This document shows, one piece after another, positions 11,223-27,211 of a stretch of DNA of 64,000 nucleotides. Every line of letters begins with the position of its first letter. Within the stretch, counting starts at the first letter, position 1. The stretch comes from Clostridiales bacterium (GTDB taxonomy: Bacteria > Bacillota > Clostridia > Peptostreptococcales > Anaerovoracaceae), in contig JAQYRL010000065.1 in NCBI GenBank assembly GCA_028725765.1, positions 1 to 64,000 on the forward strand, given 5' to 3'. A program made the position numbers and the translations under genes. The notes under the pieces are model-generated. The model was not told where the DNA came from, made no database searches, and saw nothing but the letters and a program-made list of their open reading frames with translations.

Positions 11223-13718
<2,496 letters not shown>

Positions 13719-13732
<14 letters not shown>

Positions 13733-14045
13733 TGCTGCTCACTATCCTTTCAAAAATAAAATCAGATACCTCATCCAATTTATCCTCTGCATTATTCTGC
13801 ATCTCTCTGTTTTGCTTCTTAACATTTTCAATAAAGTCATCATAATTTGTCTTAGCAATACGATTACCTTCTTCAATTTGTTCCTGATAGTAATCCTTAC
13901 CTTTTTGCTCTGCTTCACTTATGATTCCTTCACTGCGATTCTTAGCATCTTCTAGGATTTTCTTTTCCGTAGCCTTTGCTTCTTTAACAAGATTTTCAGC
14001 TGCTTCCTCGCTATTGACAATCTTAGCAAGTTCATCAGAAAACAT
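13719..14045 (-). CDS. V-type ATP synthase subunit H/G-like coiled-coil protein
   Basis: Charged helical 108 aa protein at the operon head, overlapping the I gene. Confidence 0.75.
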
Positions 14046-14192
14046 AAACCCACCTCCTTATTCTACGGAAGATATATGTATATTTAATTATACTCTTAAG
14101 AATACATTCCTTCAAGTATTGTACCCACAAATTAAAAATTTTACTCATCTTATTTATTTTTTTCGGGATCACAATGTACTAAAAAAAGTTCG

Positions 14193-14221
14193 TTGACACG
14201 TTGAATTTTGAGGTATACAAT
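14193..14221 (+). promoter_or_regulatory. Sigma-70-type promoter upstream of the AtoE-like gene
   Basis: TTGACA (14193-14198), 17-bp spacer, TACAAT (14216-14221). Confidence 0.65.
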
Positions 14222-21684: not shown

Positions 21685-22983
21685 TTAATTTTTGCCTTTT
21701 TTATAATATTCTTTCATTACATCTTCAGGGACAGCACTACCACCTGTTGCCCAAATTATATGAGTTGGATTATAGTCCTGATGCCCATGGCATTCCAAAT
21801 TATTCGTTACAAGTTCAGGCCCTGGAAATGCTGCACATGCAGAAGGCTCAATCCAAAGGTTTTCTAGGTCTCCAAGGTTAGATAAATAAGGATATAACCG
21901 TTCATCCTGCACTGTAAAACAGCCTTCAAGCATTTTCGCCATTATTGGTGAAACAAGAGCTGACGGCCTAGATACAGCCAATCCATCCGCCTCGGTTAAA
22001 CCAGAAAGTCCGATGTCAGTCGCAGAAATATTCTCAAATTTTCCGGTAACTAACCCCAAGGTCATTGCTGGGGCTTGTACAGGTTCAGCAAAATATATGT
22101 GAACATTATCACCGAATTCATCTTTGAGACCAAAGGCAATCCCGCCAGGTGCACCACCAACTCCACATGGGATATAGACATAGAGAGGACATTCCTCTGA
22201 AACAGAAATATTTTGCTCTTTAAGCTGTCTTGCGAGCCTACGTCCTGCAACCGCATAGCCCAAGAATAAATCTATCGAATTTTCATCATCTACAAAATGG
22301 CATCTAGGATCAGCCAAAGCGAGTTTGCGCCCTTCTGCAACAGCCTTTTCGTAGTCACCGGCATATTCACATATATTCACGCCAGCCTTTTTGAGTACAT
22401 CCTTCTTCCATTCCTTAGCATCATGTGACATATGAACAGTAACTTTAAAGCCTAGTTTTGCACTAATAATCCCTATGGACATACCTAAATTCCCAGTAGA
22501 TCCAACCGCAACACTGTAGCCTGAAAAAAACTTTTTAAATTTATCTTCAGCTAAAATGCTGTAATCATCGTCATAACTAAGAAGTCCCTCTGAAACTGCG
22601 AGTTCCTCAGCATATTTTAAAACTTCATAAATGCCTCCCCTAGCTTTAACTGAACCAGAAATAGGCAGGTGACTATCACATTTTAGGTACAAATCTCCAC
22701 AAATTTTTTCACCCTCGGTCTCGAGATATTCTTTCATTTTAGGAATTTCAACAAGTGGCGATTCTATCATGCCTCTTCGACATTTAGTCTCAGGAAAAAC
22801 GCGTTCGATATATGGGGCAAACCTTATTAGCCTTCCCTCCGCTTCATCTACATCTTTCGCATTCAAATTATCGTCTTGTATCCCATCCTGTTTAATGTTT
22901 TTTCTGTCTAGGACAAGGGGGTTAGTCCAAAATATTTCTCTTGCATTTGACATCTCGTCAACAAAATAGTTCATATCCCTCAT
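21685..22983 (-). CDS. dsdA: D-serine ammonia-lyase-like PLP enzyme
   Basis: SHLPISGSVKARGGIYEVLKYAE PLP-lysine motif and DsdA-like length. Start set at MRDMNYFV after aggagggtgacaac; the track ORF runs to 23004. Confidence 0.85.
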   Translation of the reverse strand: MRDMNYFVDEMSNAREIFWTNPLVLDRKNIKQDGIQDDNLNAKDVDEAEGRLIRFAPYIERVFPETKCRRGMIESPLVEIPKMKEYLETEGEKICGDLYLKCDSHLPISGSVKARGGIYEVLKYAEELAVSEGLLSYDDDYSILAEDKFKKFFSGYSVAVGSTGNLGMSIGIISAKLGFKVTVHMSHDAKEWKKDVLKKAGVNICEYAGDYEKAVAEGRKLALADPRCHFVDDENSIDLFLGYAVAGRRLARQLKEQNISVSEECPLYVYIPCGVGGAPGGIAFGLKDEFGDNVHIYFAEPVQAPAMTLGLVTGKFENISATDIGLSGLTEADGLAVSRPSALVSPIMAKMLEGCFTVQDERLYPYLSNLGDLENLWIEPSACAAFPGPELVTNNLECHGHQDYNPTHIIWATGGSAVPEDVMKEYYKKGKN

Positions 22984-23147
22984 GTTGTCACCCTCCTGCA
23001 TCAAATACCTCCCCAGATAAAGAGCAATATAATAAATGATTTTGATGAAATTTTACAGCTATTATTTGCATAATTGTTTGCAATAAATCTCTATTTAAAT
23101 TATAACTCATAGAACCTTGAAAGTGAATATTATTTATAGCAATAATA

Positions 23148-24068
23148 TCAAAGACCATGTTTCAGTTTTTTTCTTGCAAAAGTTGTCTGCGGAAGCCCCA
23201 AAAGGCTCGCTGCTTTTCGCGTAGTTCCCGCTTGCTCCATCGCATAAGCGATTATCTCTTTCTCTTGCGCATCCATGAATTCATGAAAATCAAAATGAGT
23301 TCCTATATCTGAGCTAGCCTGTCTTAGTTCCGGAAATCCGGTTTTTCCACCCTCAGAATGAATCAACTGCTCAACATCCAACTCTGTTATCATCTCACCT
23401 TTACTCTTTATTACAAGCCTGTGCATTACATTTTCCAGTTCCCTAACATTGCCAGGCCACGAGTAGCACGCCAAAGTTCTCAATGCATCATACCCTATTT
23501 TCTTATTAATCGAATATTTTTTTGACCACTCGTTTACAAAAAACTCTGCAAGGCATACGATATCTTCTCTTCGCTCTCTGAGCGGTAGGACATCTATAGT
23601 GCATATATTTAAGCGATAATAAAGGTCTTCCCTAAAGGCTCCATGTTCTACAAGTTCTTTGAGTGGAACATTGCTTGCAACTATTACTCTTACATTAATA
23701 TTTACAGGCGTTGTACCTCCTATCCTGTAAAATTGGCTTTCCTGGACAGCTCGTAGTAATTTTGACTGTAAATGCAGCGGCAAACTGCCAATTTCATCCA
23801 AAAACAAAATACCATTATTCGCCATTTCGAAATATCCGTGCTTGCCTTCACTTCTTGCTCCAGTAAAAGCTCCCTTCTCATACCCAAACAGTTCTGATTC
23901 AGCTAACCCTTCATTAATTGTTGCACAGTTTATTTTGATGCATGGTTCACTCCTCCTGCTGCTATTTTCATGTATAAGCTCAAGTACTTTTTCTTTTCCG
24001 ACTCCTGTTTCTCCTTGAATGACAACATTACAGTCATATTTTGCAATATTCAAAACTTCGTCAACCAT
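23148..24068 (-). CDS. Sigma-54 activator AAA+ domain plus Fis-type HTH; probably the C-terminal half of a frameshifted protein
   Basis: GETGVGKE Walker A, FGYEKGAFTGA loop, LFLDEIGSLPLHLQSKLLRA, SWPGNVRELENV, C-terminal KAASLLGLPQTTFARKKLKHGL. Confidence 0.9.
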   Translation of the reverse strand: MVDEVLNIAKYDCNVVIQGETGVGKEKVLELIHENSSRRSEPCIKINCATINEGLAESELFGYEKGAFTGARSEGKHGYFEMANNGILFLDEIGSLPLHLQSKLLRAVQESQFYRIGGTTPVNINVRVIVASNVPLKELVEHGAFREDLYYRLNICTIDVLPLRERREDIVCLAEFFVNEWSKKYSINKKIGYDALRTLACYSWPGNVRELENVMHRLVIKSKGEMITELDVEQLIHSEGGKTGFPELRQASSDIGTHFDFHEFMDAQEKEIIAYAMEQAGTTRKAASLLGLPQTTFARKKLKHGL

Positions 24069-25246
24069 TTTTTTGTTGCCTGGCTTTTAAAAACGAATCC
24101 TCCTTGTTCAGCGGTTTGTCCAGATTCAGCATCAGATGTTTCTTCGTCAAAAACGCTCCATAAGAAGTCTTTTTTTATCTCGTGCCATAGTTCTCCCGCC
24201 TTTTCCATATTCGTCTTTAATTTATTTGCAATCATGAATGTGAACTCAGGATGTTCCTCAACATATTGGTCAAAAACATCCATATGTACTTCTTTCCCCA
24301 GACCCTCAGTCGCCACTGCCGCAGTCCAATAGTGATTCCCTGCAGATGAAAAAAACACATGTCCACTCTCTTTCACAATTGATACTGCAAGGCTCTCTGC
24401 ACCAAAGACATCTTCTATCACGACAACCTTGTCTACAATACCACTATATATGTTCCCAAGTTCCATCATCTCTTTTACAGCCTCAATAGGTCTTACAAGA
24501 TCAACAAAATAGACTTGATCCACAACGCCTTCAAGAGCTTTTACTGTGGCTTCTTTTTGAATTGAATGCGATGAATTCCGATCTATTATGGCCGAAATAC
24601 TGCCTTTAATGCCATTATCATTCATAGCTTCTCTCATCGCCTGTGCATAAAGCATTGTAGCAATGGGAGTGTTACCTATTATCATGGCTGATTGAATTTT
24701 TTCAGACTTAGCAATTTTGTATAATCCATATAAATTGCCTGCCTCATCTACAGCGGTAAGAATAAACTCTTCCTGTATACCAGGTATTAGATGTCGCAAT
24801 GGAGTAGTATCAAAGACAATCGCATAGCCTTTGCAATTTATCTGGCCATATTTAAAATCAATTGAATCTATACTTTCAATCTTCATAGGGATTCCACAGG
24901 TTGAGCATACACAGCAAACATCATCACCAACTTGAAAGTTTTCAGCGTTTAAATAGTTTTTGCTCATACTCATCATCTTCCCTACAAATACTCCTCCAGT
25001 TTTAGTGTAAGGATTTTGGAGTTTCCCTCTTTTATTAATTATATCTATAATTCTATTTTTTATTTTGAATGTATCATATCCACAACTAGAACAAATTTGT
25101 CCAAAGCTTTCTTTTTCCATTTGAATTTTATCAATACGAAGAAGTGCCTCACCATCACCTATTTTAGGAGAGTTATCTAGTTCCCACGCTGCGACCGGCA
25201 ATACACCCTTGGGTGAAACAACTCTTGATAGTCCAAAATTTTTCAT
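24050..25246 (-). CDS. 3,5-diaminohexanoate dehydrogenase-like domain; probable sensor half of the adjacent sigma-54 activator
   Basis: Resembles Kdd (SRVVSPKGVLPVAAWELDN, RGKLQNPYTKTGGVFVG), with added CSSCG and CCVCSTCG motifs. Overlaps the AAA+ ORF at an A7 run (24068-24074). ATG at 25246 has an upstream AAGGA. Confidence 0.75.
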   Translation of the reverse strand: MKNFGLSRVVSPKGVLPVAAWELDNSPKIGDGEALLRIDKIQMEKESFGQICSSCGYDTFKIKNRIIDIINKRGKLQNPYTKTGGVFVGKMMSMSKNYLNAENFQVGDDVCCVCSTCGIPMKIESIDSIDFKYGQINCKGYAIVFDTTPLRHLIPGIQEEFILTAVDEAGNLYGLYKIAKSEKIQSAMIIGNTPIATMLYAQAMREAMNDNGIKGSISAIIDRNSSHSIQKEATVKALEGVVDQVYFVDLVRPIEAVKEMMELGNIYSGIVDKVVVIEDVFGAESLAVSIVKESGHVFFSSAGNHYWTAAVATEGLGKEVHMDVFDQYVEEHPEFTFMIANKLKTNMEKAGELWHEIKKDFLWSVFDEETSDAESGQTAEQGGFVFKSQATKKWLTKF

Positions 25247-25376
25247 GTACAATTCCTTCCAAATCTTTTGTTTCTATTTGATAAATAATTAAAATATAAT
25301 GTACAAACAACTTCTATGCATTTATCGACTTAGGTCTTAATCATTATTTCTTTATATTTTATATTTTTTCCTCCCT

Positions 25377-25437
25377 TGGGTCAATGATTTTTGACCCATT
25401 TTTGGTTCGCAAATACCCAGCTGACCCGTTTTTGGTT
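25377..25437. promoter_or_regulatory. Candidate sigma-54 activator upstream activating sequence
   Basis: 8-bp perfect inverted repeat TGGGTCAA-N6-TTGACCCA (25377-25398) and direct repeats TGACCCATTTTTGGTT / TGACCCGTTTTTGGTT offset by 30 bp. Confidence 0.65.
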
Positions 25438-25611
25438 TAAAAGTATACAAATCCTATCATATTCTATTTCAGTTATAGATAAAGCGACAGAGAATTTTAA
25501 AAAAAAACATTTTTTTGATTACATTAAAATCCTCATAAATTCAGTTTTAAATTATATATATTGTATATACATTTGTCTTTAATTAAATTAAAAGATTAAA
25601 AATCTATCTTT

Positions 25612-25628
25612 TGGCATGATGATTGCAT
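25612..25628 (+). promoter_or_regulatory. Sigma-54 (-24/-12) promoter
   Basis: TGGCATGATGATTGCAT; GG (25613-14), N10, GC (25625-26). Confidence 0.85.
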
Positions 25629-25702: not shown

Positions 25703-27211
25703 ATGAACACACTTAAAGCAATTCTTAAGTTCGTTCCAGTTGCTGTACTTGCAGCACTTATGATGTCCGGAATGGATGCTCTTATTGCAGCTCCCCTTGC
25801 AACTATCTGTGCTTGCATCGTTGCTGCTGTAACAGAGAGATTGAAGTTTAAAGACATGCTTGATGCAGCGGTTGGAAGTGTATCTCACATTCTTATCGCT
25901 CTATTCATTCTGATGTTTGCCTACGCAATGGCTTCCGCATTTATGAGCACAGGTGTAGGTGCTTCTGCCGTAATTATTGCGCTTTCGCTGGGTGTTACAG
26001 GTAAGACTGTAGCCGTAGTTGGAATTGCTGTTACAGCTGTACTTTCAGTTGCAACAGGTACATCTTGGGGAACTTTTGCAGCATGCGCTCCAATCTTCCT
26101 ATGGCTTAGTAACATAGTTGGAGGAGATGTTGTTTTGACTACTTGTGCAATCGCAGGCGGTGCATGCTTTGGAGATAATATCGGTCTTATTTCCGATACT
26201 ACAATTGTATCTTCAGGTATTCAGGGCGTTGAAGTAGTTGATAGAATAAGATCACAAGGAGTATGGTCAGTTGGATGTCTGATTCTTGCCATAATAGCAT
26301 TCTTTGTTGCAGGGACGTTAATGGGTCTCCCAGGGGAAACAGCTGATGCTTCTGGAGTTTTTGATAAACTTACCGCTGAAGCTCCAGATGCTATTGCATA
26401 TATTCAGGATAAAAAGCCTGTTGCTATCGACCTTCTAACTCAAGTTCAGGAAGGTGTGGCACTTTACATGATAGTACCTCTAATCCTTGTAATCGGTCTT
26501 GCTGTTGCAGGTGTTAACACATTCATGTGTATCGGTTCAGGTATTCTATCAGCTTATATCCTTGGACTCTTTGCAGGTACTACAACGTTTGGGGGACCTG
26601 ATTTCGAGCACAGTGGTCTAAACGAGTATCTAAATCTTATTATGGATGGATTCTCGGAAGCTGGTGCATGGGTAATTGTAATGATGATGTGGGTAGCTGC
26701 ATTCGGTGGAATCATGGCTGCAATGAACGCGTTTGATCCTCTTGCTAGAGGAATTGTTGCAATATCCGGCAAAGTAAGAACTCTTATGTTCTTTAACGGT
26801 CTTCTCTGCATAGGTGGTAACATGCTTCTTGCTGACGAAATGGCTCAGATTGTAACCGTTGGTCCTATCATCAAAAATGTCCTTGAAGAAAACGTTGAAG
26901 GTTCTGAAGAGGACATGTACAAACTTAAACTCAGAAATGCTACATTCGGAGATGCAATGGGAGTATTTGGTTCACAGCTTATTCCATGGCACGTATACCT
27001 TGCATTCTATGTAGGTATCGCAGCTAACGTATATCCTCTGTTTAAATTTGAACCTGTACATTTCATACAGTACAACTTCATGGCTATGATTGCTGTTGTA
27101 TCTTTACTTCTTCTAACAATAACAGGTGGAGACAGATTGGTACCTCTATTTGGTCTTCCTAGAGAACCTGAAGTTTATCTCAAAGGAAAAGAAAAACAGT
27201 TTCAAGCTTAA
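25703..27211 (+). CDS. NhaC-type Na+/H+ antiporter family transporter
   Basis: Polytopic, ATGTSWGTFAACAPIF, GGACFGDNIGLISDTT. Start reassigned to ATG 25703 (aaaaggag upstream) because the track start 25616 lies inside the sigma-54 promoter. Confidence 0.88.
   Translation: MNTLKAILKFVPVAVLAALMMSGMDALIAAPLATICACIVAAVTERLKFKDMLDAAVGSVSHILIALFILMFAYAMASAFMSTGVGASAVIIALSLGVTGKTVAVVGIAVTAVLSVATGTSWGTFAACAPIFLWLSNIVGGDVVLTTCAIAGGACFGDNIGLISDTTIVSSGIQGVEVVDRIRSQGVWSVGCLILAIIAFFVAGTLMGLPGETADASGVFDKLTAEAPDAIAYIQDKKPVAIDLLTQVQEGVALYMIVPLILVIGLAVAGVNTFMCIGSGILSAYILGLFAGTTTFGGPDFEHSGLNEYLNLIMDGFSEAGAWVIVMMMWVAAFGGIMAAMNAFDPLARGIVAISGKVRTLMFFNGLLCIGGNMLLADEMAQIVTVGPIIKNVLEENVEGSEEDMYKLKLRNATFGDAMGVFGSQLIPWHVYLAFYVGIAANVYPLFKFEPVHFIQYNFMAMIAVVSLLLLTITGGDRLVPLFGLPREPEVYLKGKEKQFQA

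Follow-up and report, generated by a model that had tools for sequence, protein, structure and literature searches.

Sensor and Fusion Partner

The locus raises the question of whether a dehydrogenase of lysine fermentation has become the sensor of a sigma-54 activator, and, if so, whether the copy found here still works. In the window (the whole 64,000 bp stretch of DNA analyzed), two minus-strand open reading frames (ORFs) follow each other. The first resembles L-erythro-3,5-diaminohexanoate dehydrogenase (Kdd) and the second is an AAA+ module. We consider it reasonably probable that together they represent a sigma-54 activator of the one-component type, belonging to a Kdd-derived family and interrupted here by a one-base break, and that its cofactor-free sensor activates nhaC, probably on D-serine or a related amino acid.

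The sensor ORF (24050..25252, minus strand) has a probable start at ATG 25246 (MKNFG, matching the orthologues) and a TGA stop at 24050. It is 400 aa long and is Kdd-like over nearly its entire length by profile, sequence, and fold. The NCBIfam model NF052381 (Lys_ferment_KDD) covers residues 7-172 with an E-value of 1.1e−35, scoring 123 bits against an equivalog cut-off of 200 bits. Residues 6-343 align by phmmer with PDB entry 7dl3, a 3,5-diaminohexanoate dehydrogenase (1.4e−26), and a profile built from 17 relatives finds Kdd homology at 1.8e−55. The predicted structure (mean pLDDT 82, pTM 0.80) has the Kdd fold. Foldseek matched it to 7dl0, 7dl3, and 7dl7 at an E-value of about 1e−27 (TM 0.63-0.69 by query), and the Kdd structures far outrank other medium-chain dehydrogenases. 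A Pfam search of the sensor gave only sub-threshold PTS_IIB and PALP hits and no family placement, and a PHROGs search gave nothing. The preliminary description had proposed about 390 residues of Kdd resemblance, to be checked with Kdd profiles, in the sensor of a sigma-54 activator. The resemblance is borne out by all four comparisons (NCBIfam, phmmer, the 17-relative profile, and Foldseek), and a Kdd-derived sensor within a sigma-54 activator family is supported. The segment it quoted as the presumed Rossmann region, SAMIIGNTPIATMLYAQAMREAM, is present in the sensor as stated.

The second ORF (23148..24068, minus strand; 306 aa) encodes an AAA+ sigma-54 activation domain (PF00158, 2.7e−62) and a C-terminal HTH (HTH_50, 1.7e−06, 28.0 bits against a cut-off of 27). 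The Walker A (GETGVGKE) and GAFTGA motifs are intact. The AAA+ profile match begins at position 13, with the first core strand missing from the ORF.

The Frame Break

The earlier reading placed the sensor ahead of the AAA+/Fis module in one protein and missed that the two ORFs are in different frames, so that a −1 shift is needed to join them. The relatives are truly fused. The full-length relatives examined, including orthologues at 85% and 71%, carry sensor and AAA+ domain in a single ORF of about 690-740 aa. The frames part at an A7 run (24068..24074, minus strand) that forms an A_AAA_AAA heptamer, with ACA AAA AAA TGG in the zero frame and the AAA+ ORF in the −1 frame. The junction reads GCA ACA AAA AAA TGG TTG, and a −1 shift yields ...KKMVDEVLNIAKYDCN, through which homology continues. 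The closest orthologue crosses the junction in one frame as ATKKLVDEVLNIAKYD, with A7 followed by C. Other orthologues have TKQMVDEV, TKNMVDEV, or TARMVEEV. Among the relatives examined, the break is private to the window genome, as a mutation, an assembly error, or a break rescued by slippage. The simplest history is an A8 run shortened by one A in this genome. A second apparent break, at 13620-14193, proved to be a spurious antisense ORF over minus-strand genes.

One reading of the break, short of an even chance but to be taken seriously, is a recent pseudogene in which an A was lost from A8 and the AAA+ part is at most a sensorless, unregulated activator started at ATG 24068. It draws on the uniqueness of the break, on its being the sole genuine one when about 29 genes of the window were compared with 30 ORFs of the closest relative, and on the A7 run having no supporting stem-loop downstream. 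The rest of the gene shows no sign of long decay, however. The dN values against the closest relative are low on the two sides of the break (0.089 and 0.078; synonymous sites are saturated or nearly so), which dates any loss of function as recent, and the promoter and repeats described below are intact. The AAA+ fragment is also a poor candidate for a product of its own, as it lacks both the first core strand and a well-spaced ribosome-binding site.

We hold in similarly limited regard a homopolymer sequencing or assembly error in a gene that is really intact. A one-base indel in an A run, seen in this assembly alone and set in an otherwise conserved gene, is what such an error would leave behind. 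Short-read sequencing normally reads A7/A8 runs correctly, which counts against an error if the platform was short-read, and the window showed no further break of this kind. A joining of the two ORFs by slippage on A_AAA_AAA, whether as programmed −1 frameshifting or during transcription, is unlikely, for although the slippery heptamer is canonical and in the right phase, an A8 run minus one base creates it automatically, the site is conserved in no relative, the RNA after the run folds no better than shuffled sequence (z 0.25), and an AGGAGG about 24 bases upstream is too far away for the usual stimulator. The frame break may mean that the window copy makes no working regulator.

Gene Neighborhood and Promoters

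Downstream of the regulator, and in the same direction, is dsdA, encoding D-serine ammonia-lyase (21685..23004, minus strand; NF002823, 5.8e−187; TIGR02035, 1.4e−175). Divergent from the regulator is a gene for an NhaC-family transporter (25703..27211, plus strand; PF03553, 5.9e−20), whose orthologues are about 500 aa. Because the start listed for the nhaC ORF (25616) falls within its sigma-54 promoter, translation most likely begins at ATG 25703 (MNTLK). This −24/−12 promoter (TTGGCATGATGATTGCA, 25611..25627, plus strand) faces nhaC and is the sole consensus match in the 64 kb window, with 0.09 expected. The genome has one sigma-54 gene.

Two copies of CCAAAAAYGGGTCA, 30 bp apart, lie about 180-220 bp upstream of the nhaC promoter, where 0.05 would be expected. 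Both are on the minus strand and are candidate upstream activator sites, the first (CCAAAAATGGGTCA) at 25392..25405 and the second (CCAAAAACGGGTCA), from the same repeat search, at 25422..25435. A palindrome, TGGGTCA-N8-TGACCCA (25377..25398; one found, 0.02 expected), overlaps the likely promoter of the regulator (TTGACC ... TATAAA).

The order nhaC, divergent regulator, dsdA is found in eight genomes including the window genome, and further related loci have nhaC with dsdA absent. At the threshold used, 11 of 12 related loci have a sigma-54 promoter before nhaC (0.25 expected), and none of the 12 has one above threshold before dsdA. In some relatives only 7-59 bp separate the regulator from dsdA, which may let transcription from the regulator promoter continue into dsdA. 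Promoters of the same kind accompany the lysine-type regulators, defined by kal or kamA beside the regulator (42 loci). A strong sigma-54 promoter is downstream of the regulator in 37 of the 42 (about 0.6 expected from shuffles), and 29 have one upstream that faces away from it (about 0.45 expected from shuffles).

Distribution and Phylogeny of the Family

Scanning the GTDB species representatives turned up 264 candidate relatives, and we read the loci of the best 79. The informatively named loci among these best 79 of 264 are from Clostridia, many from Anaerovoracaceae/Family XIII. An even draw of 147 genomes across the class contained a Kdd relative in 13, and in four of the 13 it was a fusion. 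The window genome is one of the four, through its unbroken fused copy (C70), and two of the four belong to other families. The C70 copy is a separate paralogue located in a lysine cluster.

In a quick tree with long branches, whose root was set by choice between enzymes and regulators, 20 enzymes split from 55 regulators with an SH-aLRT of 100. The lysine-cluster regulators form one group (SH-aLRT 99) and the window gene is in another. Kdd was likely captured once as a sensor.

Several loci have features of their own. Aminicella lysinilytica (L061) has two Kdd-type regulators at one locus, one beside nhaC and the other beside an amino-acid permease gene and a gene for a 1604-aa protein. A 1590-aa homolog of the latter, without an NCBIfam match, is found at L059. 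Two lysine-cluster regulators (L052, VEKDKSKG; L141, VERDEENG) have lost the GAFTGA loop of the AAA+ domain and may therefore be unable to activate sigma-54 promoters in the normal manner. Other Kdd-type regulators (L071, L098, L081, and L086) precede CoA-transferase, thiolase, and aminotransferase genes with sigma-54 promoters, which suggests further amino-acid regulons.

Cofactor Loop, Retained Residues, and Cysteines

In alignments, the dinucleotide-binding loop of the window sensor is degenerate. Residues 193-203 (24644..24676, minus strand) read GNTPIATMLYA where enzymes have GGGGKSGLLC. The enzymes sampled carry GGGGKSG, GGAGKSG, or a close variant, so the preliminary description was right in recalling a glycine-rich GxxGKSG-type loop for catalytic Kdd, and the degraded cofactor site that it suspected is supported by GNTPIAT in place of GGGGKSG. 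The G-K-G residues of the enzyme loop occur in 0% of the lysine-type and dsdA-linked regulators.

The other half of the sensor has kept more of the enzyme. Gly76, Lys77, Asn80, and Gly87 are retained in 100% of the regulators aligned, and Pro81 and Thr83 are present in essentially all. Glu316 is also retained and aligns with Glu310 of the enzyme in the phmmer alignment to 7dl3. In Kdd, Glu310 touches the NADPH amide (PMC9902596), so the sensor may still allow some cofactor binding. The dsdA-linked branch lacks the glycine that enzymes and lysine regulators invariably have at position 329. The window sensor thus shares with Kdd its fold, its near full-length homology, and these retained residues, but differs in its score below the NCBIfam cut-off, its lost GGGGKSG, and the AAA+/HTH module attached in the relatives. 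From sequence, the best reading is a cofactor-free pseudo-dehydrogenase, which would be a sensor without enzyme activity.

Early-branching or distant regulators have loops closer to those of the enzymes: GANGKIG (L053), GANGKVG (L142), and GASSKIG (L143), the last two being assigned by loop sequence only and absent from the tree. Since these regulators retain the loop, its loss is a feature of the derived clade. At L048 and L050, the gene for a divergent Kdd-like enzyme, its loop shortened to GAGKAG, is flanked by genes for an early-branching regulator and a TRAP transporter.

Two cysteine clusters had been pointed out in the sensor, and both are present in the alignments: a Cys54/Cys57 pair (CSSC; 25082..25093, minus strand) and a cluster at residues 113-119 (CCVCSTC; 24896..24916, minus strand). 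Cys54 occurs in 79 of 83 activators (99% outside the early branches) and is missing from most enzymes. Cys114, where the enzymes have Thr, is found in all seven other dsdA-linked regulators, 40 of 41 lysine-type regulators, and about half of the remaining ones. In the dsdA-linked branch Cys57 is invariant (7/7), as are Cys54 and Cys114, and Cys119 is nearly so. Cys113 and Cys116, which complete the CCVCSTCG cluster, are restricted to the three closest species. Arranged as two pairs, the four conserved cysteines might provide a metal or thiol site.

For the family as a whole, we lean slightly toward a history in which Kdd was captured once as the sensor for the sigma-54 activator of its own lysine pathway. 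The NAD(P) loop would have persisted in the early branches, which may sense cofactor and substrate jointly. The derived branches would have lost the loop, multiplied, and been redeployed to other amino acids, including a D-serine/NhaC regulon.

Proposed Mechanism and Ligand

In the proposed mechanism, a small amino acid would bind in the former dehydrogenase cleft and not be converted. This would release the AAA+ ring, sitting on the repeats about 180-220 bp upstream, so that it could remodel sigma-54 RNA polymerase and open the nhaC promoter. NhaC would then import the amino acid that DsdA breaks down, with D-serine or a close relative as the likeliest signal. Gene order points first to D-serine, dsdA being the neighbor that is conserved; given the missing sigma-54 promoter before dsdA and the several nhaC loci without dsdA, it is a neighborhood-based guess. 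The window copy could give a full-length protein only if the break is an assembly error or if −1 slippage occurs on A_AAA_AAA; failing both, it would be a recently broken gene or the source of a sensorless AAA+ fragment.

The preliminary description had the sensor reading a diamino or keto-amino acid intermediate, and a lysine intermediate is not supported for the window copy, which belongs to the nhaC/dsdA branch, is separate from the lysine-cluster paralogue (C70), and has the window's sole sigma-54 promoter facing nhaC. A version in which the sensor still recognizes 3,5-diaminohexanoate or 3-keto-5-aminohexanoate, and nhaC moves a basic amino acid, is improbable. It can appeal to the related clade in lysine-fermentation clusters behind sigma-54 promoters, to Lys77, Asn80, and Gly87 of the substrate half being retained in all regulators, and to the presence of an nhaC gene in the ornithine operon of clostridia (PMC6615313). 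The tree, however, puts the window gene outside the lysine clade, the genome already has a lysine-cluster paralogue, and the dsdA linkage in eight genomes and the changed glycine at 329 also argue against it.

Comparison with Known Activators and Implications

The regulator resembles PrdR, OrdR, and LeuR, clostridial one-component activators with a GAFTGA motif that are encoded beside an amino-acid catabolic gene and an nhaC-type transporter gene with a sigma-54 promoter (PMC6615313). The survey that describes them lists PAS, GAF, HPr, PrpR_N, ACT, CBS, ferredoxin-type, V4R, and receiver sensors, with PAS in most of the one-component activators surveyed in Clostridiales, but no sensor of a dehydrogenase type (PMC6615313). 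KamR of Bacillus thuringiensis (PMC4428206) is likewise a sigma-54 activator at a lysine-aminomutase locus, but its sensor is PAS, not Kdd. We found no description of a Kdd/sigma-54 activator fusion in the literature searched, which took in few subscription journals.

To our knowledge, the ligands of most one-component sigma-54 activators are not known. The enzyme from which this sensor descends has a known substrate and crystal structure, which offers a direct route to them, and with cofactor loops ranging from intact to lost, the conversion of enzyme into sensor can be put to the test. Regulators in the lysine clusters would be predicted to activate the fermentation of lysine to butyrate in gut Clostridia. 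If the single capture and later redeployment are true, a metabolic enzyme would have given rise to a whole sensor family whose intermediate forms still exist.
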